Positions 3,066-18,348 of a DNA stretch of 28,746 bases are shown piece by piece. How positions within the stretch are numbered: the first letter of the stretch is position 1; each line of letters starts with the position of its first letter. Location of the stretch: IMG/VR virus record IMGVR_UViG_3300046817_000871, positions 1 to 28,746 of that record. One strand, 5' to 3'. The position numbers and the translations under genes were made by a program. Below the pieces are notes generated by a model, which was given only the letters and a program-made list of their open reading frames with translations, was not told the origin of the DNA and searched no databases. Origin of the DNA: a virus.

Positions 3066-3299
3066 CTAGCCGCCTCGCTTCTGGCCGGGGCCGGCCACCG
3101 CCGCCTCGACCTCGGGCGCCGAGCGGTCGGACGAGAGGAGCGGCTCGAACAGGTGGGGGTACTTGCGGTAGAGGGGATCCGACCCGCGCACGCGCGTCCG
3201 GCCCCTCACGCCGCCGAGGAAGTCCGGGAACTCGGGGTCGGCATTCGCCCAGGACGTCTTGGCGACGTACCAGGTGTCCTGTGGATCGGTCCTCGCCAT
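3066..3299 (-). CDS. Small head protein following capsid, hypothetical
   Basis: 77 residues from an ATG with GGAGG five to six bases upstream, which is better than the longer start at 3353. That longer start would run into the hairpin after the capsid gene. The segment TRVRGSDPLYRKYPHLFEP resembles the short proteins that often follow the capsid gene in siphophages of high-GC hosts. The function of those is generally unassigned. Its TAG abuts the next ATG. Confidence 0.65.
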   Translation of the reverse strand: MARTDPQDTWYVAKTSWANADPEFPDFLGGVRGRTRVRGSDPLYRKYPHLFEPLLSSDRSAPEVEAAVAGPGQKRGG

Positions 3300-3319
3300 G
3301 CTGGCCTCCGGTGGGTGTC

Positions 3320-3351
3320 GAGGAGCGGGACCGGGGGGCGACCCGCTCCTC
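3320..3351 (-). terminator. GC-rich hairpin after the capsid gene (partial terminator or mRNA stabiliser)
   Basis: A perfect 10-bp stem, GAGGAGCGGG with CCCGCTCCTC, and a 12-base loop. It starts 9 bases after the capsid stop codon and ends before the Shine-Dalgarno of the next gene. There is no U-run after it on the minus strand, so full termination is unlikely. Partial termination or protection of the capsid mRNA 3' end fits better. Confidence 0.7.
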
Positions 3352-3360
3352 AATCGGGGA

Positions 3361-4872
3361 TTACTTGCCGCGGAAGATGCACGCCTCGCGTCCGGCGCCG
3401 AGGGTGTTGAGGCCCAGGCCGACCGAGGTGTTGCGCCACCACGCGTAGACCATCCGCTGGCCGGTCGGGAGACCGGTCGCCGCGGACAGGAAGTTCGGGA
3501 TGAGCTCGATGTTGAGTCCGACCCGGTCGATGATCACGAACCGGGTCCGGTCGGCGAGGATCGCCACCTTCTCGGTCGAGGCCATCGAGGTGTTGGCCGG
3601 CGCGATGGCCTCGTAGGCCGGGTAGCCGACGAGGTTACCGAGACGGCCGTTGTTGGCGTAGTCGCCGAGCGAGCCGCCGAGGGTCAGGTTGTCGACCCAC
3701 AGCCCGGCGCCGCCGGCGGTGTCGATGCCGCGGACGAGGCTGTAGAAGTACGGGCTGCCGAGCCAGACCGCGTTGCCGCGGTAGCGCGGGCCGAGGTTGG
3801 CCGCGAGCTTGTACAGGTCGGCCGGCACGATCGTGAGGGTCGTGGTCGTGTCGAGGAAGTTGAGGGTGTAGTAGGTGTAGATGCCCATCGGGTGATGGCC
3901 CGTGCCGATGGCCGTCGAGAACTCGGTCGCCTCGAGGACGTCCTTGGCGTCGGCGATCTCCTTGGTCAGCTCGGCCTCGAGCGAGCCGAGCGCGTAGTCG
4001 CCCTCGATCTCGACCGAGAAGGTGGCCGCGGTGTGGGCCTTGACCAGCAGGCGAGCAGGTGCCGTGAAGGCGGGCGACAGGTCCGTGGCCGCGGTGGCCT
4101 CGTCCTCGTACACCGCCGTCATGCCCGAGGACACCGACGGCCGCCAGTCGTTGCTGGTCGTCTTGACGACGCGGAACGCCGCCCGGAACGGGTTGATGGC
4201 ACCCGAGGTGTTGATGATCATCGTGGGGTCGAGATCGAACGGGACCGCCGTGTTGGACGCCGTGACCAGTGCGGTCCGGGCCTCCTCGAAGGCGTGGGAC
4301 TCCTCGGCCGTGAACGCGGCGCCCGCCGGCCCCTGGGTCAGGAACTTGCGGTATGCCCGCCGGTACGCCGGGGCGCCGGTGTACAAGACGCGCTTGTCCA
4401 TCTCGACCGGATCGATCGTGTCGCCAGGCTTGCCGCCGTTGAGCAGCGACTCGATCTCGCCCTGGCCCTTGGCCCGCTCGGTCGTCGGGAAGTGGGCGCC
4501 TTCGACGGCCCGCATCGCGGCGTCGTGCAGGTTGCTGACCCGCTGCTCCTCGCTGCGCGCCTCGCGCTCGATGCGCCGGACGTCGTAGATCGACTCGAGG
4601 TCGCGACCCTTGATGACCGCCGGCGGGCTGTAGGTCTGGACGACCCGCTCGGGATCTTCGGAGTTCACGCGAACCTGAAGTTGGCGGGTACGCTGGGCGG
4701 TGATCTCGGCTTCGAGTTGGCCGCGCTCCGTCACCCGATCGTCGAACAAGGTCTGCTCGGACTCGGACAGGATGCCCGGCACGTCGGCCGCCCGCTTGAT
4801 CTCGGCGTTGAGCTCGACGACGCGGGCGGTCTTGTCCTCGATCGTGACGTACTTGCTGGTATCGATTGCCAC
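3361..4872 (-). CDS. Possible separately initiated major capsid protein
   Basis: An internal, in-frame start for the capsid half of the fused frame. A GTG at 4872 is preceded at 7 bases by a full AAGGAG (4880-4885). It would give a 503-residue protein beginning MAIDTSKYVTIEDK, a normal length for an unprocessed HK97-type capsid with its delta domain. Initiation here would make more capsid than protease, which assembly requires. This is an alternative product of the same frame, not an extra gene. Confidence 0.5.
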   Translation of the reverse strand: MAIDTSKYVTIEDKTARVVELNAEIKRAADVPGILSESEQTLFDDRVTERGQLEAEITAQRTRQLQVRVNSEDPERVVQTYSPPAVIKGRDLESIYDVRRIEREARSEEQRVSNLHDAAMRAVEGAHFPTTERAKGQGEIESLLNGGKPGDTIDPVEMDKRVLYTGAPAYRRAYRKFLTQGPAGAAFTAEESHAFEEARTALVTASNTAVPFDLDPTMIINTSGAINPFRAAFRVVKTTSNDWRPSVSSGMTAVYEDEATAATDLSPAFTAPARLLVKAHTAATFSVEIEGDYALGSLEAELTKEIADAKDVLEATEFSTAIGTGHHPMGIYTYYTLNFLDTTTTLTIVPADLYKLAANLGPRYRGNAVWLGSPYFYSLVRGIDTAGGAGLWVDNLTLGGSLGDYANNGRLGNLVGYPAYEAIAPANTSMASTEKVAILADRTRFVIIDRVGLNIELIPNFLSAATGLPTGQRMVYAWWRNTSVGLGLNTLGAGREACIFRGK

Positions 4873-5625
4873 GTGTTCGCTCCTTGAATCAGAAGACCCG
4901 CCTTCCGGCGGGTCCTGGGCTGCGATGACTGCCGCGTCTGGCGGCGGGTCCGGCTCATCGCGGCGCTCCGGTTCGAGGTGAGCCTCTTCGGGCTCGGCGT
5001 CGACGGAGGGTGCTACCGGCTCTGTGGTGGTGAACGTGACCGGCGAGCGCATCTCGTCGGTCAGCGAGCGCAGGGCGACCGACGCCCCGGCATAGGCGGG
5101 CCAGGTGACCGGCCCGAGCTCGTGCAGGCGGGCCTCGGTGATGGTCCGCTCGGGCAGGCCCTTCGGATTGTGGGCCGAGACCGGTGCGTCCTTGGTCCAC
5201 CATTGCGGCGGGTCCTCGCGGACGACCGAGAAGCGGTGGCTGGCGCCGTAGACGCCCTTGCGGATACCGTCGACGATCAGTTCGGGAACGCCATCGAGCA
5301 GGCGACCGCGGACGAACGGGCTGGTCGCATCCTCGCCGACCTCGTCGGTCGTGGCGATCGGCGACTCCCCGATCGAACCCTTGCCATGCTGGAACAGGAT
5401 CTTCGGAGGGCGCTCAGCCATCGTCTTCTTGTAGGCCGAACGGCTGAACCGCTCCATGAAGTGGCCCTCGGCCACCGATTCGATCTCGGCCCACTGGTCG
5501 TGGGGCGCGAGACGGACCGTCAGCGTCTTGCCGTCCTCGGACACGCCGCCGGGCATCGCCCGATACAGGTCGTCGCGGACGTGCTGCACCTCGGCTTCGG
5601 CCTCGGGCTCCTCGGTCATCGTCAT
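3361..5625 (-). CDS. Prohead protease - major capsid protein in one open frame (HK97 type)
   Basis: 754 residues. The ATG overlaps the portal stop (ATGA), with GGGAG upstream. Residues 15-190 match the HK97 prohead protease (S78) pattern: candidate catalytic His80 in ILFQHGKGSIG, Ser129 in YGASHRFSV, and the typical ELGPVTWPAYAGASVALRSL end. Residues 195-250 are an acidic, Pro-rich linker. From residue 252 on is an HK97-fold capsid: a coiled-coil delta-like region (about 255-315), a conserved body, and a C-terminus with LGNLVGYPAYE and RVGLNIELIPN. In most phages these are two genes. Here no stop codon separates them, but a hairpin, an AAGGAG and a GTG at codon 252 lie at the boundary, so separate capsid synthesis is also possible. 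Self-cleavage could also separate the parts. Confidence 0.9.
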   Translation of the reverse strand: MTMTEEPEAEAEVQHVRDDLYRAMPGGVSEDGKTLTVRLAPHDQWAEIESVAEGHFMERFSRSAYKKTMAERPPKILFQHGKGSIGESPIATTDEVGEDATSPFVRGRLLDGVPELIVDGIRKGVYGASHRFSVVREDPPQWWTKDAPVSAHNPKGLPERTITEARLHELGPVTWPAYAGASVALRSLTDEMRSPVTFTTTEPVAPSVDAEPEEAHLEPERRDEPDPPPDAAVIAAQDPPEGGSSDSRSEHVAIDTSKYVTIEDKTARVVELNAEIKRAADVPGILSESEQTLFDDRVTERGQLEAEITAQRTRQLQVRVNSEDPERVVQTYSPPAVIKGRDLESIYDVRRIEREARSEEQRVSNLHDAAMRAVEGAHFPTTERAKGQGEIESLLNGGKPGDTIDPVEMDKRVLYTGAPAYRRAYRKFLTQGPAGAAFTAEESHAFEEARTALVTASNTAVPFDLDPTMIINTSGAINPFRAAFRVVKTTSNDWRPSVSSGMTAVYEDEATAATDLSPAFTAPARLLVKAHTAATFSVEIEGDYALGSLEAELTKEIADAKDVLEATEFSTAIGTGHHPMGIYTYYTLNFLDTTTTLTIVPADLYKLAANLGPRYRGNAVWLGSPYFYSLVRGIDTAGGAGLWVDNLTLGGSLGDYANNGRLGNLVGYPAYEAIAPANTSMASTEKVAILADRTRFVIIDRVGLNIELIPNFLSAATGLPTGQRMVYAWWRNTSVGLGLNTLGAGREACIFRGK
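4870..4914 (-). promoter_or_regulatory. Internal ribosome-binding site and hairpin between protease and capsid parts
   Basis: On the minus strand a perfect 8-bp stem GACCCGCC/GGCGGGTC closed by a GGAA tetraloop (4895-4914) is followed by AAGGAG (4880-4885), a 7-base spacer and GTG (4870-4872). The stem sits in coding sequence yet looks like an intergenic element. The spacing of site to start equals that of other genes in the window. Confidence 0.65.
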
Positions 5626-7088
5626 GGCTTCTTGCTCCCATTGGCGGGCATCATCGGCATGGCCGGCTTGCTCCCGTTGGTCGCGGGTGCCTTGCCGACC
5701 ACGGCCGGCACGGTGCCCTCGACAGGCGTCTCGCCGGGTGCCTCGCCGACCGGCATCTTGGTGCTGCCCGGGGCTTGCAGCTGCACGCTGAACAGCCCGG
5801 TGTGGTTCCCGATCAGCAGGGTGTAGTCGTCGGCCTCGACCGCCTTGATGGCGTCGTCGGCCTTGAAGCCGGTGACGATGAGTTTGTCGATCGTGGCCGC
5901 CTTGGTCGCCGCGATGTCGGCCCGGTCGCGCTCGTCCTCGGCCAGGAACTGGATGCCCGAGGCGTCGTACCAGAGCTCGGACCCGGTCGGCGGTGGCACG
6001 ATCGACTCGAGGCTCGAGGCGATGTTCTGCCACTGCGGCCGCGCCCACAGGTCCGCGAACGCCCGCCGCGCCTGGCCGTAGTTGCTGTAGGTCGCGGCCT
6101 GCAAGCCCTCGGACAGGCCGACGATGATCGGCGGCACGCCGGCCGCGGCCGCCACGCGGGTCTCGCCGTGGCCCTGGACGATGGCGAAGTCGAGCTGCTG
6201 GAGGTTGGCGCCGACCACGGTCGCGTCGGCACCGCCCGACAGGTACAGCGTGCGGTAGGCGTTGGCGGCGCCGGCGTGGCCCGCCTCCATGAGCCGGACC
6301 CAGTCGTTCCACTCCTCCTTGGGCAGCGTCTCGGGTCGCTTGACCACGAGGTTGGGCGTCGCACCGTTCTCGAAGAAGCTGAGCTTGTGACGGGTCGCCG
6401 CACTGTCCGACATGACCTCGCGGATGAGCGGCGTCAGCCAGCTGATGCCGCGGAACGACGCGAGCGGATCGGCGATCGGCGCGAAGTGGGCGACCTGCTC
6501 GGGCAGCAGGATGACCGGCTTCTGGCCCGAGCCGACGCCGCCCGGCGTGTAGGCGTAGCCGACGACCTGCGCGTCGAGGTCCTGCGCCGGCGCGTCGAGG
6601 ATGATCCGCGTCCAGTCGGGGCGCATGACCCGCAGTCGGTTGCCGGGACGCCGCGCGATGTAGCCGTTGCCGGCCATGTCGGCGTGCTGGAGCGCCCGCC
6701 CGAGCAGGTCACCCGTCGTGGCGCCCGGCCACGGGTGCTCGAGGATGCCGAGGCTCTGGTCGCCCCACAGGTCGCCGGTGTTGCCGGCCCGGATGCGGCG
6801 GTACTTGAAGCGGGCCTGGACGAACAGCCGGCGGCGGGCGTCCATGCACGCGAACACGATCGCGTTGCCGCGGTAGCCCTGGTCGACGAAGCCGCCGAAG
6901 GTGCCGTCGATGTCCTCCTGCTTCGCACCGGGCAGGGTCTGGTTGAGGCCCAGCGGATACGTGCGCCCGCCGAAGTTGACGAACGGCCACGGGTCCTGCA
7001 TCGACGACCACGGGTCGTAGCTCGAGGCACGGCTGCTGCCGTAGGCGGCAGGGTCGAACAGGGACCGGACCCGGTCGAGGACACTCAT
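5622..7088 (-). CDS. Portal protein (HK97 family)
   Basis: 488 residues, ATG with CGGAG five bases upstream. It follows the terminase and precedes the protease-capsid gene, as in HK97-like phages. Recognisable portal features include the N-terminal VFACMDARRRLFVQARFKYRRI region, AGNGYIARR, and ISWLTPLIREVMSDSAATRHKLSFFENGATPNLVV. VGLSEGLQAATYSNYGQARRAFADLWARP and the LAEDERDRADIAATKAATIDKLIVTGFKADDAI tail are also typical. The length is usual for the family. The last 60 residues are Pro/Ala/Gly-rich and low-complexity. Its product would form the dodecameric ring at the head vertex through which DNA is packaged. Confidence 0.95.
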   Translation of the reverse strand: MSVLDRVRSLFDPAAYGSSRASSYDPWSSMQDPWPFVNFGGRTYPLGLNQTLPGAKQEDIDGTFGGFVDQGYRGNAIVFACMDARRRLFVQARFKYRRIRAGNTGDLWGDQSLGILEHPWPGATTGDLLGRALQHADMAGNGYIARRPGNRLRVMRPDWTRIILDAPAQDLDAQVVGYAYTPGGVGSGQKPVILLPEQVAHFAPIADPLASFRGISWLTPLIREVMSDSAATRHKLSFFENGATPNLVVKRPETLPKEEWNDWVRLMEAGHAGAANAYRTLYLSGGADATVVGANLQQLDFAIVQGHGETRVAAAAGVPPIIVGLSEGLQAATYSNYGQARRAFADLWARPQWQNIASSLESIVPPPTGSELWYDASGIQFLAEDERDRADIAATKAATIDKLIVTGFKADDAIKAVEADDYTLLIGNHTGLFSVQLQAPGSTKMPVGEAPGETPVEGTVPAVVGKAPATNGSKPAMPMMPANGSKKP

Positions 7089-12240: not shown

Positions 12241-12542
12241 GCGTGCCAGCTCGCGAACTCGTCGAGGTCGAACGTGATCGTCCGCACCGCCCGCTTGCCG
12301 CTGCCGGGACGGGTGACGACGACGCACGCCCGCAGCCGGTCACGCCGCGGGATCGCCTCGAGGTATGCCATGACCGCGGCCAGCGACGGCAGGCTGCGGA
12401 CGGCCTTGACCTGGACGTCGAGGTAGCCCTCGACGATGACGTCGACCGGGCCGCCGTCCATGCCGACACGGGTGCCGTCGAGAGCAGCCGCGACCGCGCG
12501 CTCGGCCGCGGATCCGATCGCCTTGGAGCGGGACGTGGTCAT
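12237..12542 (-). CDS. PD-(D/E)XK-like small nuclease or resolvase-like protein
   Basis: 101 residues, ATG in an ATGA overlap. The order Glu14 (SAAERAVAAAL), Asp34 (GPVDVIVEG) and QVK at 44-46 (LDVQVKAVRSLPS), then a helix and the final strand and tail (TITFDLDEFASWHA), fits the small single-domain PD-(D/E)XK nucleases of phages, some of which act on branched DNA. The usual E-x-K is Q-x-K here, an accepted variant in the superfamily. It is next to a replication-initiation-like gene and near recombination genes, which fits a resolvase or VRR-type job. Confidence 0.65.
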   Translation of the reverse strand: MTTSRSKAIGSAAERAVAAALDGTRVGMDGGPVDVIVEGYLDVQVKAVRSLPSLAAVMAYLEAIPRRDRLRACVVVTRPGSGKRAVRTITFDLDEFASWHA

Positions 12543-13009
12543 GCGCCCTGGCCTCGTCGTCTCATCTCCGTGATCTTGTCCGTCCAGTCCCCCCCAGACC
12601 CCCCCTCTTCTATTCCCCCCTTACCCTTACCTACCGGCGTATCGCTACGGACTGGTACGGACTCATCCGTAACTAGGTGCCATTTGTGCTTGTCGCGGTA
12701 CTGGTAGGACGGCCTGCCACCGATGCGCTGATGCTTCACGAGAGTCGGGATGAAGGCGCAGCCGCAGGGGTGCCGGACGATCCGGCCGGTCTGCACCAGG
12801 ACGTCGCCCCAGCCATCGATATCCCGCTCGCGGCGGTGCACCGTCCGGTACGGGTAAAGCGACGCCCCGAGCTGCGACGGCTTCCACTCGAGCCAGCCGG
12901 CGTCGTCGGCCATGCACCACAGGCCGATGTAGAACAGGCGCACGGCATCCGATAGGTGGCCGAGCGTGTCGTCCTGCCAGAAGTCGGGACGCACCGCGCG
13001 GATCCTCAC
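12539..13009 (-). CDS. Replication initiation / replisome organizer-like protein
   Basis: 156 residues from GTG in a GTGA overlap. The N-terminal 110 residues match the pattern of phage replisome-organizer N-domains: MRIRAVRPDFWQDDTLGHLSDAVRLFYIGLWCMADDAGWLEWKPSQLGASLYPY, then L.QTGRIVRH and AFIPTLVKHQRIGGRPSY. This is a winged-helix type DNA-binding region. The C-terminal part is short and low-complexity (GKGKGGIEEGGSGGDW) and lacks a helicase-loader domain. It may therefore bind the origin or act as a regulator. Its 3' end on the coding strand is strongly G-rich (12589-12626). Confidence 0.65.
   Translation of the reverse strand: MRIRAVRPDFWQDDTLGHLSDAVRLFYIGLWCMADDAGWLEWKPSQLGASLYPYRTVHRRERDIDGWGDVLVQTGRIVRHPCGCAFIPTLVKHQRIGGRPSYQYRDKHKWHLVTDESVPVRSDTPVGKGKGGIEEGGSGGDWTDKITEMRRRGQGA
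12589..12626 (-). other. G-rich tracts, candidate G-quadruplex on the coding strand
   Basis: Runs of 7, 7, 6 and 3 G on the minus strand, separated by 3, 9 and 3 bases, inside the 3' end of the replication-like gene. The long runs can supply several GGG tracts each, so a quadruplex is feasible in DNA or RNA. Confidence 0.5.
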
Positions 13010-13215
13010 GTCAGCCGCCAGGCCGCGTGGCGCGCCGATCGCGCGTGCTGCTCGGCAGCGCGGCGCTTGCTCTCGAGGTCGTCGGCCGCCTCGAGCGTGG
13101 CACCGCAGACGCACGTGCAGCGTGCCAGGGGCCGGCACTCGCACGGATTGCGGCGGCACCAGGCACAGGCGTACTCGACGAAGGCGAAGAACGGACGGGT
13201 AGGGGAGGTCTTCAT
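13006..13215 (-). CDS. Small Cys-rich protein, putative zinc-binding
   Basis: 69 residues, ATG in an ATGA overlap; its TGA overlaps the next GTG. Seven Cys are packed in residues 23-43 (ACAWCRRNPCECRPLARCTCVCG), followed by a charged helix (ADDLESKRRAAEQHARSARHAAWRL). It looks like a zinc-binding knuckle on a helical tail. Partner or nucleic acid unknown. It is located between a nuclease-like and a replication-like gene. Confidence 0.6.
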   Translation of the reverse strand: MKTSPTRPFFAFVEYACAWCRRNPCECRPLARCTCVCGATLEAADDLESKRRAAEQHARSARHAAWRLT

Positions 13216-13799: not shown

Positions 13800-14662
13800 G
13801 CCTGATTGCCGAACCGCGTCCAGCCTGGTCGTTCCGACCGGGCGAACACTTCGAGCCGCGAGGCGTCGGGGAACATCGACTCGATCAGGCTGTATGCCGC
13901 CTCGGGTTTGGCCGAGTGCTGGCCACGCCGCGCGTCGATGACGCTCGACTGCCGGATCTCCTGCTCGGGCGGTGACACGTCGCCACGCCGGCCGATGAGG
14001 ATCGTTTCGTGTTGCTGGCGGACCCAGTAACCCATACCGATGCGGTCCTTGACCCAGACGGCCTGGGTGACGTACTCGAATCCCCAGCCATCCATGACGA
14101 CCAAGGCTTCACGCAACTTCGGGCTGGTCGCCCACAGGAACAGCACTGCGTCGGCCGCCAGGACGTCCTGTATCGGCTTGCCGGCGTCGTCGCGATACGC
14201 GGCGATCTCGACCACGTCCATCGTCGGGTACTGATTCTCGATGGCCCTGTTGTCCGTCTCGGCGAAGTCGTACTGCCAAGGCGGATCAGCGAGGACGACG
14301 TCAAAGACGCCGGCCGGCAGAAGGGCAGGAATGGTCGGCGCGGCGATCCGGGGACTGAGGGTCAGCCCCTCGTTGACGATCTCATGCCACGAACCGAAGT
14401 TAGTAACGGCGTTACGAACTTGCTCGGGCGTCGGGTAGAGGTAGGCGAAGGCGGCCCGTTTTACGACCTCCTCCCGCGACTTGCCGATAGCCCCCGCGAT
14501 CTCATCGAGTCGCCCGGCCGGGAGTTGCTTGCGATCGCCACGCTCGGCCAACACGAGCAAGCCGAACTCCCAGCGGGCCATGATCCCGTTGCCCTCGGCC
14601 TCGTCCACCTTGCGGTCGAGCTCGATATAGCGACCGTCTGGCCCGAGGATCGAGACGTTCAC
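13796..14662 (-). CDS. MT-A70 family adenine-N6 DNA methyltransferase
   Basis: 288 residues, GTG in a GTGA overlap. The catalytic motif DPPW is at 126-129 in FDVVLADPPWQYDF. Other family marks follow: YPTMDVVEIAAY, DAVLFLWATSPKLREALVVMDGWGFEYVTQAVWVK, QQHETILIGRRG, and HSAKPEAAYSLIESMFPDASRLEVFARSERPGWTRFGNQ. Residues 1-105 are an added region with an HTH-like segment (RLDEIAGAIGKSREEVVKRAAFAYLYP), perhaps a ParB-like or DNA-binding domain. It probably methylates phage DNA at a short site, protecting it from host restriction or regulating it. No cognate restriction enzyme is obvious, though two nuclease-like genes follow. Confidence 0.9.
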   Translation of the reverse strand: MNVSILGPDGRYIELDRKVDEAEGNGIMARWEFGLLVLAERGDRKQLPAGRLDEIAGAIGKSREEVVKRAAFAYLYPTPEQVRNAVTNFGSWHEIVNEGLTLSPRIAAPTIPALLPAGVFDVVLADPPWQYDFAETDNRAIENQYPTMDVVEIAAYRDDAGKPIQDVLAADAVLFLWATSPKLREALVVMDGWGFEYVTQAVWVKDRIGMGYWVRQQHETILIGRRGDVSPPEQEIRQSSVIDARRGQHSAKPEAAYSLIESMFPDASRLEVFARSERPGWTRFGNQA

Positions 14663-15420
14663 GCCGTCAGCACCAGCCAGAAGAAGCCGCGCTCCTCGTC
14701 GGTGAGACTGGCCATCGTCTCCTTGTCCGGGTACGTCTCGTGGAACAGCCGCGACGCGGTGTCGACCGAGATCGGCGACTTGCCGAGCCGCTCCTTGAAC
14801 TCCCTCGCCGTCAGCGGTCCGCCCTTGCCGTCCTCGGGCCACGCCGGGACCGACTCGGCCTCGTCCACCGGCTCGGGCTCGACGACGCGCTGGCGCGTTG
14901 CCGCGGCCACCTCGGCGAGCGTCTGCCTGGGCGCCGTCGGCTCGACCGTCGGCACGTCGGTGTCCCACCGCTCGTCGGCTGCTGGCGCCGCCACGTCGAA
15001 TGCGCGCCGCAGCGCCATCGACTCGGCGACCTTGACGGCCATCTCGGGGCCGAACGCGGCGTTCTTGCCCTTGACCGGGTAGCGGCCCGAGTAGGTGAAC
15101 GCCCGGCTCATGTCCTTGCGGTAGACACTGCACGTCGCCCGCCAGTAGCCGTCGACCTCGATCGGCTCGCTCGTCTCGATGCCATCCAGCTGGCCCGAGC
15201 GGTGCGCGATGTGCAGCAACCCGTCGCGGGTGATGAACGGCCGGCCATCGATCAGGACCAGGTGCTTGAGCATCAGGTCGAGCTCGTACCGCTGGGCGAT
15301 GTTGAGCGCCAGCTCGCGCTGCTCGGGCGCCACGCGGTCGAGGCCGATCGCCTTGAGCAGTGCCAGCTCGCGCGGGTCCTTCCACGCCTCGGGGGTCCGG
15401 GTCGGTGCGTCGGTCGCCAT
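14659..15420 (-). CDS. RecT/Bet-like single-strand annealing protein
   Basis: 253 residues. AAGGAG sits in the last codons of the exonuclease gene, 8 bases before the ATG. Residues 35-145 show the features expected of this group: ALNIAQRYELDLMLKHLVLIDGRPFITRDGLLHIAHRSGQLDGIE, then GYWRATCSVYRKDM, then YPVKGKNAAFGPEMAVKVAESMALRRAF. A Pro/Glu-rich linker (150-195) leads to a small C-terminal helical part. Placed directly after a YqaJ-type exonuclease, it would coat and anneal the single strands made by that enzyme. The pair forms a Red-like recombination system, which could also drive replication. Confidence 0.8.
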   Translation of the reverse strand: MATDAPTRTPEAWKDPRELALLKAIGLDRVAPEQRELALNIAQRYELDLMLKHLVLIDGRPFITRDGLLHIAHRSGQLDGIETSEPIEVDGYWRATCSVYRKDMSRAFTYSGRYPVKGKNAAFGPEMAVKVAESMALRRAFDVAAPAADERWDTDVPTVEPTAPRQTLAEVAAATRQRVVEPEPVDEAESVPAWPEDGKGGPLTAREFKERLGKSPISVDTASRLFHETYPDKETMASLTDEERGFFWLVLTA

Positions 15421-15424
15421 GTCC

Positions 15425-16357
15425 TTACTCCTTCTCGAGCGTCACCCGGAAGGGTCGGAACCCTGGCGTGATGCTCGTGTGCAGCCCGACGAGCGCAGCG
15501 CGCTCCGTCTCGGGCATCTGTCGCAGCAGGCCGTCGGCGATCGACTTCCAGTCGGTCTTGCCCACGTCCCTGGTCTGCTTCCAGGTGATGGCGAAGCCCG
15601 GCCCGGTGAGCCGTGCGGCGTCGCCCATGCGTGCCTTGATGGCCGTCTCGATGCGCTCCTCGGCGGCCTCCATGTCCTTGCGCTGCGCTCGCAGTGCGAC
15701 CAGCGCGGTGACGGCCTCGGTGAGCTCGGCGTCGGCCGTCAGCTCCGAGCCGTCGTCCGATGGGTGGTCGCGCCGGATGCGCGCCGAGTCGCGGGCGAAG
15801 GGCCCCCCCTCGAGCAGCCGCCGGCGGAAGTCGACCGCCACCGCCACGAGGTCGTCGAACAGCGCCGGGTCGGCCGCCACCTCGAAGACCTCGAGCTCGT
15901 CGTCGGCGACCAGCGCCGCCACATCGGCCACCGGGTAGCCCGTGACGCCGAGCTGCCAGGCGACCTGTGCCTCGATGTCCTGCGGCAGGCCGTCGGCGAA
16001 GCGCGACCGGCTCGAGGTGCGCTTGGCCTCGACGAGGCGCCGCTCGCCGATGACCCGGAAGTCGGGCGACGCGCCGGCCCACGGGATGCCCGGGTGCGTG
16101 TGCAGCCGCAAGTCGCGCTTGACGCGCCGGCCGGTGCTCTCGCTGTACGCCTCGCCGATGAGGTCCTGGACGGCCAGCCCGATCCGCATCCGCAGCGTCT
16201 GCGGCTGCATGTCGCCGAACAGCTTGTCGTCGGCCAGGTCGGCCTCGCACTTGTACGGCGACAGGCCGAGCAGGACCGGGATGTCGCTGGCCGTCACGAG
16301 GTCCCGGCGTGCGGCCAGCCAGGCGTCAGTGCCCTGGACGTAGGCCGTGGCCGTCAC
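15425..16357 (-). CDS. YqaJ-like viral recombinase / exonuclease
   Basis: 310 residues, GTG in a GTGA overlap. Family motifs in order: GTDAWLAARRDLVTASDIPVLLG (9-31), IGLAVQDLIGEAYSESTGRRV (59-79), GASPDFRVIGERRLVEAKRT (95-114) with Asp99, Glu110 and Lys112 as the D...E-x-K site, and QDIEAQVAWQLGVTGYPVADVAALV (about 125-150). Such lambda-exonuclease-like enzymes resect double-stranded ends 5' to 3'. The C-terminal part holds a coiled-coil-like stretch (AQRKDMEAAEERIETAIKARMG) and a beta end, as in other members. It is coupled to the annealing protein downstream. Confidence 0.9.
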   Translation of the reverse strand: MTATAYVQGTDAWLAARRDLVTASDIPVLLGLSPYKCEADLADDKLFGDMQPQTLRMRIGLAVQDLIGEAYSESTGRRVKRDLRLHTHPGIPWAGASPDFRVIGERRLVEAKRTSSRSRFADGLPQDIEAQVAWQLGVTGYPVADVAALVADDELEVFEVAADPALFDDLVAVAVDFRRRLLEGGPFARDSARIRRDHPSDDGSELTADAELTEAVTALVALRAQRKDMEAAEERIETAIKARMGDAARLTGPGFAITWKQTRDVGKTDWKSIADGLLRQMPETERAALVGLHTSITPGFRPFRVTLEKE

Positions 16358-16554
16358 TTGCCGAACGCCTCTCGCAGCTCGGCCTCGGCCCAGTCGGCAT
16401 ACTGCTCGAGCGGCCCGCCGCCGATGGGGGGATCGGCGACGGGCGCTACGCCGCGAGGATCGAGCGGCGAGGGAAGCGGAGCAGCCTCCTCCGAGGCACG
16501 GTCCGGGGTCCCCGTTCCGTCCGGGTGCTCCGCTTCCCTCGACTCGCTCGTCAT
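16354..16554 (-). CDS. Small Pro-rich protein containing a structured DNA element
   Basis: 66 residues, ATG in an ATGA overlap; its TGA overlaps the GTG of the exonuclease gene. The first 48 residues are charged and then Pro/Asp-rich without hydrophobic core. Only the end, PLEQYADWAEAELREAFGK, looks like a folded helix. Codons 2-31 are occupied by the inverted-repeat element at 16461-16550, whose length is a multiple of three. The reading frame could thus have absorbed the element without damage, or the frame may be incidental to it. Function unknown. Confidence 0.5.
   Translation of the reverse strand: MTSESREAEHPDGTGTPDRASEEAAPLPSPLDPRGVAPVADPPIGGGPLEQYADWAEAELREAFGK
16461..16550. repeat. 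Large nested inverted repeat (15-bp perfect stem plus outer 6-bp stem)
   Basis: Arm GAGGGAAGCGGAGCA (16469-16483) is perfectly complementary to TGCTCCGCTTCCCTC (16526-16540). Outside it CGAGCG (16461-16466) pairs with CGCTCG (16545-16550). Inside the 42-base loop are two smaller hairpins, GCCTC-CTCC-GAGGC (16484-16497) and ACGG...CCGT (16498-16520) with an inner CGG/CCG. The whole can fold as a three-way junction in either strand. It lies in a small gene near the start of the early block. Confidence 0.85.
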
Positions 16555-16712
16555 CGGGCCACGACCAGCGGCGCGATCAGGTAGATGGCCAGCAGCAGCA
16601 CGATCGCCCACGCGATCACGGCCGCGTCGCGCATGGCGCTGTCCTCCTGGTAGCGGGGCGGATACGCCATGTACTTCGGGACGTGGCGCTGGACGCGGGG
16701 CTGCGGCTTCAT
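16551..16712 (-). CDS. Small membrane protein, 53 residues
   Basis: ATG overlaps the preceding TGA (ATGA), and its own TGA overlaps the next ATG. The first 28 residues are basic and polar (MKPQPRVQRHVPKYMAYPPR). Residues 30-50 form one membrane segment (AAVIAWAIVLLLAIYLIAPLV). An internal ATG at 16634 with AGGAGG eight bases upstream would give a 27-residue form containing only the membrane segment, so two products are possible. This dual start recalls holin/antiholin pairs, but the gene is not in the lysis cluster and no function is shown. Confidence 0.55.
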   Translation of the reverse strand: MKPQPRVQRHVPKYMAYPPRYQEDSAMRDAAVIAWAIVLLLAIYLIAPLVVAR

Positions 16713-16819
16713 CGGATCCGCCGCAGCGACCAGCGGGCCGAGATCGCGAGCAGGCCCGCGATGAGCATCGGCGTCAGTGCGCTGATCGCGTCCATGACGG
16801 TGGTGACGTGGGTGGTCAC
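16709..16819 (-). CDS. Tiny membrane protein, 36 residues
   Basis: GTG in a GTGA overlap with the previous stop, and an ATGA overlap with the next gene. The product has a short polar start (MTTHVTTVMDA), one membrane segment (ALTPMLIAGLLAISA) and a basic end (RWSLRRIR), so the C-terminus probably faces the cytoplasm. It pairs with the neighbouring 53-residue membrane protein. Function unknown. It is supported by coupling and composition only. Confidence 0.5.
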   Translation of the reverse strand: MTTHVTTVMDAISALTPMLIAGLLAISARWSLRRIR

Positions 16820-17028
16820 GCCACGGCCGCCTTCCACGCGGCCCACTCGTCGAGGGTCGGGATCAGCAGCCGGTCACCTGCACCGCCGCGACGGGCGAAC
16901 GCAGACATAACCGGCGAGCTGGTGGCAGACCTGTCAGCGAGACGTGACAGTCGGGTGACAGTCGCGTTTACACCTGTCTGACAGCGAGTCAGACATAACT
17001 CACCTTGGGGGTAGGGGAGACGTGTCAT
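16816..17028 (-). CDS. Hypothetical protein overlapping an operator-like region
   Basis: 70 residues if it starts at the ATG that overlaps the repressor stop (ATGA). A second start at 16908 (MSAFARRGG) would give 30 residues. The last 30 residues (GDRLLIPTLDEWAAWKAAVA) look protein-like. The first 40 are unconvincing, and the DNA coding them contains a cluster of TGACAG/CTGTCA words and a 10-bp direct repeat, so it may be regulatory sequence read through by chance. The shorter form is a real possibility, although no clear Shine-Dalgarno supports it. Confidence 0.45.
   Translation of the reverse strand: MTRLPYPQGELCLTRCQTGVNATVTRLSRLADRSATSSPVMSAFARRGGAGDRLLIPTLDEWAAWKAAVA
16902..16999. promoter_or_regulatory. 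Cluster of TGACAG / CTGTCA words and a direct repeat, possible operator region
   Basis: Plus-strand words: CTGTCAG at 16931-16937, TGACAG at 16945-16950 and 16956-16961 (both followed by TCG), and the palindrome CTGTCTGACAG at 16974-16984. CAGACATAAC occurs at 16902-16911 and again at 16990-16999. The words share the TGAC/GTCA half-sites of the two operators by the divergent promoters. No good promoter is seen here. Confidence 0.45.
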
Positions 17029-17228
17029 GCCACGCGCTCCTTTGCCGCCACGATGGCGTCATGCAAGGCGGCATGGTAGGCGCGGATCCGATCGGGGGTC
17101 AGGACGACGCGTCCGCTCTCGATGCTCCAGACCGTCATCCGCGACACGCCCATCCGTGCGGCAAGGTCGACCTGGGTGATGTCCGCGAGACGCCGTTCGG
17201 CTCGCAGTTCGCGTCCCGTCAGTGGCAT
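17025..17228 (-). CDS. Small XRE-type HTH repressor
   Basis: 67 residues starting MPLTGRELRAERRLADITQVDLAARMGVSRMTVWSIESGR; the helix-turn-helix is at about 16-40. The length is that of a minimal Cro/CI DNA-binding domain, with no dimerisation or cleavage domain. The start at 17228 is chosen over the upstream GTG because the promoter at 17236-17264 would begin transcription at or one base before this ATG, making a leaderless mRNA. It is the first gene of the long minus-strand unit and is divergent from another HTH gene. Its own promoter overlaps a 12-bp palindrome, so autoregulation or cross-regulation is likely. Confidence 0.8.
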   Translation of the reverse strand: MPLTGRELRAERRLADITQVDLAARMGVSRMTVWSIESGRVVLTPDRIRAYHAALHDAIVAAKERVA

Positions 17229-17235
17229 GTCGCAG

Positions 17236-17264
17236 ACTCTAGCGACCCCGGTGACGTATGTCAA
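17236..17264 (-). promoter_or_regulatory. Promoter for the leftward (minus) unit
   Basis: On the minus strand, TTGACA (17259-17264), a 17-base spacer and TAGAGT (17236-17241). Expected transcription start is at about 17228-17230, on the ATG of the small repressor, so the message would be leaderless. Confidence 0.75.
17252..17263. promoter_or_regulatory. Operator-like palindrome by the leftward promoter
   Basis: TGACGTATGTCA, an inverted repeat of TGAC with a 4-base centre, overlapping the minus-strand -35 box. It shares 9 of 12 bases with the site at 17316-17327; the centres are 64 bp apart, about six helical turns. Confidence 0.6.
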
Positions 17265-17314
17265 ACCGGTACGTGACGACGTGGCAATTGCTACCAGTCC
17301 ATGCGCGACGGCAC

Positions 17315-17342
17315 TTGACAGTTGTCACAACCTTCGTACACT
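17315..17342 (+). promoter_or_regulatory. Promoter for the rightward (plus) unit
   Basis: TTGACA (17315-17320), a 16-base spacer and TACACT (17337-17342). The expected start is at about 17349, two to four bases before the ATG at 17352, so this message would also be almost leaderless. Confidence 0.7.
17316..17327. promoter_or_regulatory. Operator-like palindrome over the rightward -35 box
   Basis: TGACAGTTGTCA, a perfect 5-bp inverted repeat with a 2-base centre, covering most of the plus-strand -35 box. A protein bound here would block the rightward promoter. Confidence 0.65.
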
Positions 17343-17351
17343 CTCAGGACT

Positions 17352-17732
17352 ATGTACCGGCCGCCATCACGGAGCCCACGAGGGGCGTGGGCCCGCCACA
17401 TACATGAGAAGCGTCGCGATCGCGGACTGTCGCAATCCGCGGCCTTCGAGTTGCTGTACGAGGGACTTGGCCTGTCACCCCGTAGCCGGTCGGCATACCT
17501 GGCGATCGACATGGGCGACCGGCAACCGAACGAGCGAGAGGCGGCCTATCTCGCGTCGGTCTTCGGCTGGCCGTCCACGGACGTCCCAGAGGCCGCTGGA
17601 GCCACGGAGAGCAACGAGGTGCTGGTTGCCGCGATCGACCGCCAGACCGCCATGCTCGAGCGGCTGCTGATGGCCCTGACAGGCCCTGCATCGAACGGCT
17701 CCGTGCCGACCAAGCGTTCCGGAATAGGATAG
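17352..17732 (+). CDS. HTH-type regulator, divergent from the main unit
   Basis: 126 residues from ATG 17352, chosen because the promoter start point lies just before it; no strong Shine-Dalgarno is present. Residues 10-75 (GAWARHIHEKRRDRGLSQSAAFELL ... SAYLAIDMGDRQPNEREAAYLASVFG) look like a Cro/CI-type domain: the GLSQSAAFELL helix, a connecting loop, and an end resembling E.G...P....Y.A. A helical C-terminus (NEVLVAAIDRQTAMLERLLMAL) may dimerise. It is one of only two plus-strand genes and is the candidate lysogeny or immunity regulator opposing the small repressor. There is no LexA-like cleavage domain. Confidence 0.75.
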   Translation: MYRPPSRSPRGAWARHIHEKRRDRGLSQSAAFELLYEGLGLSPRSRSAYLAIDMGDRQPNEREAAYLASVFGWPSTDVPEAAGATESNEVLVAAIDRQTAMLERLLMALTGPASNGSVPTKRSGIG

Positions 17733-17739
17733 GTTCGCC

Positions 17740-18069
17740 ATGTCTCAGATCCAGATCCCGCGCACCGTCACCCAGCGCCAGCTCAAGTGGGGCATCGGGG
17801 CCCTCGTCGTCGGGCTGCTCGTGTTCAACGTCATCCGCGGCACGCTCGCCGGCGGCGCATCCCCGGCCCCCATCACCGTCAACGGGCCGGGTTCGCAGGC
17901 CGTCTACCAGCAGATCGCCGCCGACACCGACTGCGCCTCGGTGCAGGCCCAGTTCGACCAGGCGTACAGCGACAACCAGACCGCCCCCGCAGGCTCGAAC
18001 GGCAAGGCCTGGACGCTCGGCTACATGGAGGCGGCACAGGCCCGCCTGGTCGCCCTCCACTGTCCGTAG
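17740..18069 (+). CDS. Membrane-anchored small protein next to the plus-strand regulator
   Basis: 109 residues. The ATG follows a weak AGGATAGG, 7 bases after the regulator's stop, so both are probably one transcript. The N-terminus is polar and basic (MSQIQIPRTVTQRQLK). Residues 17-36 are one membrane segment (WGIGALVVGLLVFNVIRGTL). The rest would be outside the cell and includes two Cys (in DTDCAS and LHCP) near the ends of the domain, possibly a disulphide. Its expression with a repressor-type gene and its surface location suggest superinfection exclusion, as an inference only. It is followed by the convergent terminator. Confidence 0.6.
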   Translation: MSQIQIPRTVTQRQLKWGIGALVVGLLVFNVIRGTLAGGASPAPITVNGPGSQAVYQQIAADTDCASVQAQFDQAYSDNQTAPAGSNGKAWTLGYMEAAQARLVALHCP

Positions 18070-18077
18070 ACACGAAG

Positions 18078-18115
18078 ACGCCCCCTCCCGCTGGCCCATC
18101 AGCAGGAGGGGGCGT
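18078..18115. terminator. Bidirectional hairpin terminator between convergent units
   Basis: ACGCCCCCTCC (18078-18088) pairs perfectly with GGAGGGGGCGT (18105-18115). A second short stem GCTG/CAGC extends the arm over a single mismatch, leaving a 6-base loop. It lies between the stop of the plus-strand unit (18069) and that of the minus-strand unit (18127). No U-run flanks it, as is common in high-GC genomes. Confidence 0.85.
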
Positions 18116-18126
18116 GTGAGGGCAGG

Positions 18127-18348
18127 CTAGCCGCCGGGTGGCGGACTGGTGAAGTGGATGATGAACCACATCGCGAGCGCGCCGAGCAGGAACGACAGTC
18201 CCATCAGCCCGGGCCGGTCCGCCAGCGACGAGACCGTCTGGGTGTCCGCGCTGATCGTCCGCCGGCCGGTGTAGACCGCCCAGCCCTCGACGATGAGGAG
18301 CGCGACCAGACCGACCACGACGACGATGAGCGCGAGCCAGCCCGCCAT
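18127..18348 (-). CDS. Two-pass small membrane protein (holin candidate)
   Basis: 73 residues; ATG shares one base with the preceding stop (TGATG). There are two membrane segments, residues 3-26 (GWLALIVVVVGLVALLIVEGWAVY) and 47-66 (LMGLSFLLGALAMWFIIHF), with a polar loop between. It is the last gene of the long minus-strand unit, next to another small membrane protein and near a peptidase-like gene. Holin or antiholin function is inferred from size, topology and place. No specific holin family is recognised. Confidence 0.6.
   Translation of the reverse strand: MAGWLALIVVVVGLVALLIVEGWAVYTGRRTISADTQTVSSLADRPGLMGLSFLLGALAMWFIIHFTSPPPGG

Follow-up and report, generated by a model that had tools for sequence, protein, structure and literature searches.

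The window, i.e. the whole 28,746-base stretch analysed here, is an uncultivated viral contig (~69% G+C) encoding a terminase, a portal, a head protease/major head protein, a replication initiator, a YqaJ/RecE-type exonuclease, a RecT/Bet-like annealing protein and an MT-A70 methylase. One 983-aa ORF (3361-6312, minus strand) has matches to phrog_80 (head maturation protease) as well as to phrog_10 (major head protein), which makes it a fused protease-capsid gene. Units of ~65 nt that belong to one family, spaced 66-75 nt apart, occur at both contig ends (23-495 and 28046-28669), which look as if one repeat-rich gene had been cut by the ends of the contig (circular or permuted genome). A search of phage records gave no DNA match to the window and matched the exonuclease protein at 22-26% identity only, while the exonuclease profile had no match in bacterial and archaeal genomes.

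The feature under study lies within a 66-codon gene (p66; 16354-16554, minus strand) situated among small genes of the same direction. A Cro-like helix-turn-helix regulator (17025-17264, minus strand) probably opens the early operon, whose start we infer. Directly upstream of p66, a 53-aa ORF with one hydrophobic segment (16551-16712, minus strand) has its stop codon overlapped by the p66 ATG (ATGA), and the p66 stop codon in turn overlaps the GTG start (GTGA) of the YqaJ/RecE-like recombination exonuclease (15425-16357, minus strand). The latter is followed by the RecT/Bet-like single-strand annealing protein (14659-15420, minus strand; weak profile matches). Very probably p66 is a real gene, because homology to a gene that precedes the exonuclease in two relatives (L017 and L018) is recognisable over its last ~20 codons; the part that carries the hairpin (codons 5-29) shows no such homology. 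Scans of viral contigs with p66 and the p66 family gave no match, and the collections hold no close p66 relative. We also considered whether the hairpin took the place of 29 conserved codons of L018 with no change in length, and rejected this, as that part has no significant DNA similarity.

Both the gene coordinates and the overlaps bear out an earlier placement of the structure, in a preliminary description, within a 66-codon gene directly before the exonuclease. Its perfect inverted repeat was likewise confirmed, at 16 bp rather than the 15 bp first given, and is the longest in the 28.7-kb window. In gene sense, the 5' arm (16526-16541, minus strand; CGAGGGAAGCGGAGCA) and the 3' arm (16468-16483, minus strand; TGCTCCGCTTCCCTCG) enclose a 42-nt apical part with two small hairpins (16484-16525, minus strand; a three-way junction), and are themselves enclosed by an outer 6-bp stem (5' side 16545-16550, 3' side 16461-16466, minus strand). 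The outer stem and the two inner hairpins, also proposed before, are present in the predicted minimum-energy folds of both strands (-66.8 and -67.6 kcal/mol, the latter for the coding strand). The p66 start codon (16554-16552), beyond the outer stem at the hairpin base, is partly paired in the predicted fold. It had further been remarked that 72 and 90 bases, as multiples of three, would leave the reading frame intact with or without the element; the arithmetic is correct, but the relatives gave no case in which the element is present in one and missing from another, so that an in-frame insertion stays conjectural.

Chance was ruled out as the origin of this hairpin by two kinds of randomisation. 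Dinucleotide shuffles yielded z-scores of -6.45 and -5.79 for the two strands (none of 200 shuffles being as stable), and synonymous-codon shuffles with the protein held constant yielded -5.2 and -5.6. In 2000 synonymous-codon randomisations the longest stem was 12 bp, and 16 bp was never reached. Thus, the amino-acid sequence does not account for the 16-bp stem, since synonymous shuffling loses the structure while the protein is kept. Three 16-bp coding stems (in W, the window's phage, and in the relatives G008 and G010) carry rare codons on both arms, with G or C at 20 of 32 third positions in the arms (vs. a fraction of 0.88 in the clade), as expected if pairing dictates the synonymous sites; this codon signature is absent from the other stems.

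Exonuclease searches recovered about 21 related contigs (43-75% identity), of which fifteen were read fully and six partly; the hairpin comparison set comprised 22 related contigs (about 500 kb), with genes called by a simple gene finder. In the 16 full contigs, 11 of the 14 perfect inverted repeats of at least 13 bp lay no more than 1.7 kb ahead of the exonuclease start. Within the coding sequence of the 22 related contigs, six perfect stems of at least 15 bp were observed (vs. 0.42 in synonymous-codon shuffles), five of them within 1.7 kb upstream of the exonuclease (vs. 0.02 expected). A G-U-tolerant scan of the ~500 kb placed its top six hairpins (G007, G013, G010, G008, W and L220), from six phages, all at most 2 kb upstream of the exonuclease; these 2-kb intervals make up 8.6% of the scanned DNA and were defined only after the first relatives had been seen, and with W left out the remaining five top hairpins are all still inside them. 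Upstream of the exonuclease the hairpins number 162 per Mb, whereas unrelated viral contigs of high GC content have 8.6 per Mb. Lack of constraint alone does not explain the excess, which is seen both in intergenic DNA (0.98 per kb vs. 0.12) and, taken separately, in genes shorter than 500 nt (0.32 per kb vs. 0.06).

The hairpins of the relatives have stems unrelated in sequence, measure mostly 48-108 nt in total with spacers of 16-78 nt, and sit at variable positions relative to the exonuclease (-148 to about -1600): mid-gene, near gene ends or between genes, and not at start codons. The number of strong hairpins ranges from none to three per relative, a good part of the relatives being without one. 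A loop motif (CGGAACnGGGACnCCG) was tried as a core common to W and L006/L011 and discarded, as a collection scan found it to be a frequent GC-rich word that almost never occurs in hairpins elsewhere. Ahead of the exonuclease, L008 (~3500-3800), L010 (~2600-2900), L011 (~3310-3650), L022 (~3130-3430) and L220 (~3280-3560) have stretches of weak coding character that form strong hairpins in tandem. In a non-coding leader, the stems that G003 and G015 carry at one and the same position differ (12 against 11 bp, within a hairpin of 31 nt), an apparent compensatory change, and in G010 a 12-bp inverted repeat surrounds an apparent tRNA-Cys (GCA) gene downstream of the exonuclease (C1:15235-15332).

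Among wider exonuclease relatives (104 loci) few such hairpins were found, and their concentration (three of five; p 0.14) was not significant; hence, the feature belongs to this lineage. Two of the distant exonuclease loci have, upstream of the gene, hairpins that resemble the window's in anatomy (L245:1910-1982 and L249:2753-2861, with 15- and 18-bp stems and structured apical parts of 43 and 73 nt, respectively).

Paired changes were found in one pair of relatives. In L017/L018 (contigs G010/G011), the gene of a putatively secreted small protein contains two adjacent coding hairpins, both retained across six double compensatory changes (97% of cells are paired, vs. 35-56% for slid partners; 9 of 500 column shuffles as high). 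The p66 homologue contains a third hairpin, whose stem is the same in L017 and L018. The compensatory changes are suggestive of selected pairing, as far as two sequences and hairpins analogous, not homologous, to that of p66 can indicate. Long-standing selection for RNA pairing should leave more G-U than A-C mismatches; the upstream hairpins scoring at least 13 show 15 of each, with no RNA-specific excess, which speaks against a long-conserved RNA and not against recently formed perfect stems.

We reason, tentatively, that the likeliest single account is a selected, sequence-independent RNA hairpin in an early polycistronic mRNA running from the Cro-like gene through the small genes to those of the exonuclease and annealing protein. 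Such a structure-only element is favoured because the hairpins cluster ahead of a single operon and on its transcribed strand, their sequence and place being free. Of the three origins offered by the preliminary description, a structured RNA in the early transcript is the best supported, by the shared operon position in the relatives and the compensatory changes in the analogous hairpins of G010/G011. Counting against this account are the equal numbers of G-U and A-C mismatches, the relatives that have no strong hairpin in the interval, the varying distance to the exonuclease and the non-significant concentration in the more distant exonuclease loci. The hairpin would act in cis after transcription: a single early message would carry it into the exonuclease and annealing-protein genes, the most likely mechanism being RNase III cleavage at a double-stranded RNA site, and the cut would separate or stabilise the downstream exonuclease-annealing protein message, with an effect on the expression of both. 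RNase III sites lie in transcribed regions and have some 20 base pairs or more, and the window's hairpin has about 25 bp in all (16 of them perfect) in a region that gene direction suggests is transcribed. In W, the p66 start codon would in addition be held at the hairpin base, so translation of p66 and of the exonuclease would depend on ribosomes arriving from the 53-aa ORF. It is possible, if rather doubtful, that the lineage repeatedly evolves a 15-20-bp hairpin at the entrance of its recombination operon, even inside genes, with selection on structure and not on sequence or exact place.

The main and strongest rival, a serious one which we nevertheless hold to be somewhat unlikely, is that the palindromes are non-adaptive: template switching during replication (quasipalindrome correction) would make and re-perfect inverted repeats in weakly constrained early genes, where the encoded linker tolerates them. 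Template switching can create and maintain hairpins (PMC8794818), and several observations agree with it, namely the perfect Watson-Crick pairing of most top stems, the strand-symmetric mismatch types, and the clustering of the L017/L018 changes, as expected for multi-base events (PMC8794818, PMC8604942); similar coding palindromes are known in nematomorph mitochondria (PMC6649704). Yet the spacers preferred by this process are short (PMC8604942), unlike those of most of the strongest hairpins here (16-74 nt), the excess is confined to one operon interval even when compared with other small genes and intergenic DNA, and the unusual codons of three stems fall on both arms and not on one.

A narrower alternative, which appears unlikely, limits the role of the hairpin to translation, as a structure at the p66 start codon that would throttle or couple re-initiation from the 53-aa ORF through p66 to the exonuclease. 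The ATGA and GTGA overlaps and the partly paired start codon at the stem base are in line with it, but the hairpins of the relatives, lying mid-gene, near gene ends or between genes, do not share this placement.

Lambda-type early operons have terminators before their recombination genes, and on this precedent the hairpin could be a terminator or attenuator overcome by phage antitermination, an explanation we regard as improbable. In G003/G015 and G004, hairpins with short loops stand before genes, and the window itself contains a terminator-like, GC-rich hairpin (18078-18115; 16 bp, one of the pairs being G-U, and a loop of 6 nt) between the convergent genes 17740-18069 (plus strand) and 18127-18348 (minus strand), a probable two-way terminator. 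The p66 hairpin, however, lies inside a translated gene, has a 42-nt apical part and is followed by no U run on either strand, and thus lacks the features of an intrinsic terminator.

Still less probable is an element acting as DNA (a replication origin, primosome or nicking site), even though the hairpin could form in single-stranded DNA and the mismatches are strand-symmetric. The replication-initiation gene (12539-13159) is 3.4 kb from the hairpin, the relatives have zero to three hairpins each, and their unrelated stems share no common sequence or nick motif, so that the origin or nicking structure suggested earlier appears unsupported at the level of sequence. The other earlier suggestion, an absorbed hairpin-type mobile element, has in its favour a length divisible by three and is highly improbable, as the stem is single-copy in its own genome, whereas mobile hairpins (of the REP, MITE or Rickettsia palindromic element type) occur in several copies of the same sequence. 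The stem does not belong to a repeat family, because its inverted-repeat pattern recurs in no other viral contig. Bacterial genomes gave one match to the pattern, 12 bp within coding sequence rich in E and P, from a Nocardioidaceae MAG (L283); an element common to both was rejected as a coincidence, since the 12 bp stand alone and the loop and flanks are dissimilar.

Returning to the proposed early-mRNA hairpin, no Rfam 15 covariance model matched positions 15900-17400 at E-values up to 1, and nothing in the window and nine relatives reached the gathering threshold. If the hairpins are selected, the recombination operons of phages contain RNA control elements of structure only, invisible to similarity searches and to Rfam, and protein linkers are shaped by such elements. 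If they arise by template switching instead, the region upstream of the exonuclease is a natural hot spot of a mutational process rarely seen so concentrated in phages.

Known systems resemble these hairpins in part. RNase III processing hairpins occur in phage early mRNAs, such as the T7 R sites and the lambda N leader, and are likewise long, stable, little conserved in sequence, placed in early polycistronic transcripts and tolerant of position; the present ones differ in being often inside coding sequence and in having 15-20 perfect base pairs, and their cleavage is putative. In the mitochondria of Nematomorpha, perfect inverted repeats without known function are found within protein-coding genes (PMC6649704); there, too, the repeats are dynamic between species and their arms are translated, but they reach 284 bp and spread across many genes, whereas the phage hairpins are 15-20 bp long and concentrated in one operon interval. 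RNA hairpins shaped by template switching (PMC8794818, PMC8604942) share the perfect stems and the multi-base compensatory changes, though they favour short spacers and would not be predicted to concentrate locally before one operon. The extended start-associated sequences (ESAS) of Cluster K mycobacteriophages (PMC3203893) are also long inverted repeats (17 bp) with a variable spacer in phages of GC-rich hosts; their sequence is conserved and they immediately precede start sites, beside a 13-bp motif, whereas the stems described here are unrelated to one another in sequence and may lie inside genes.
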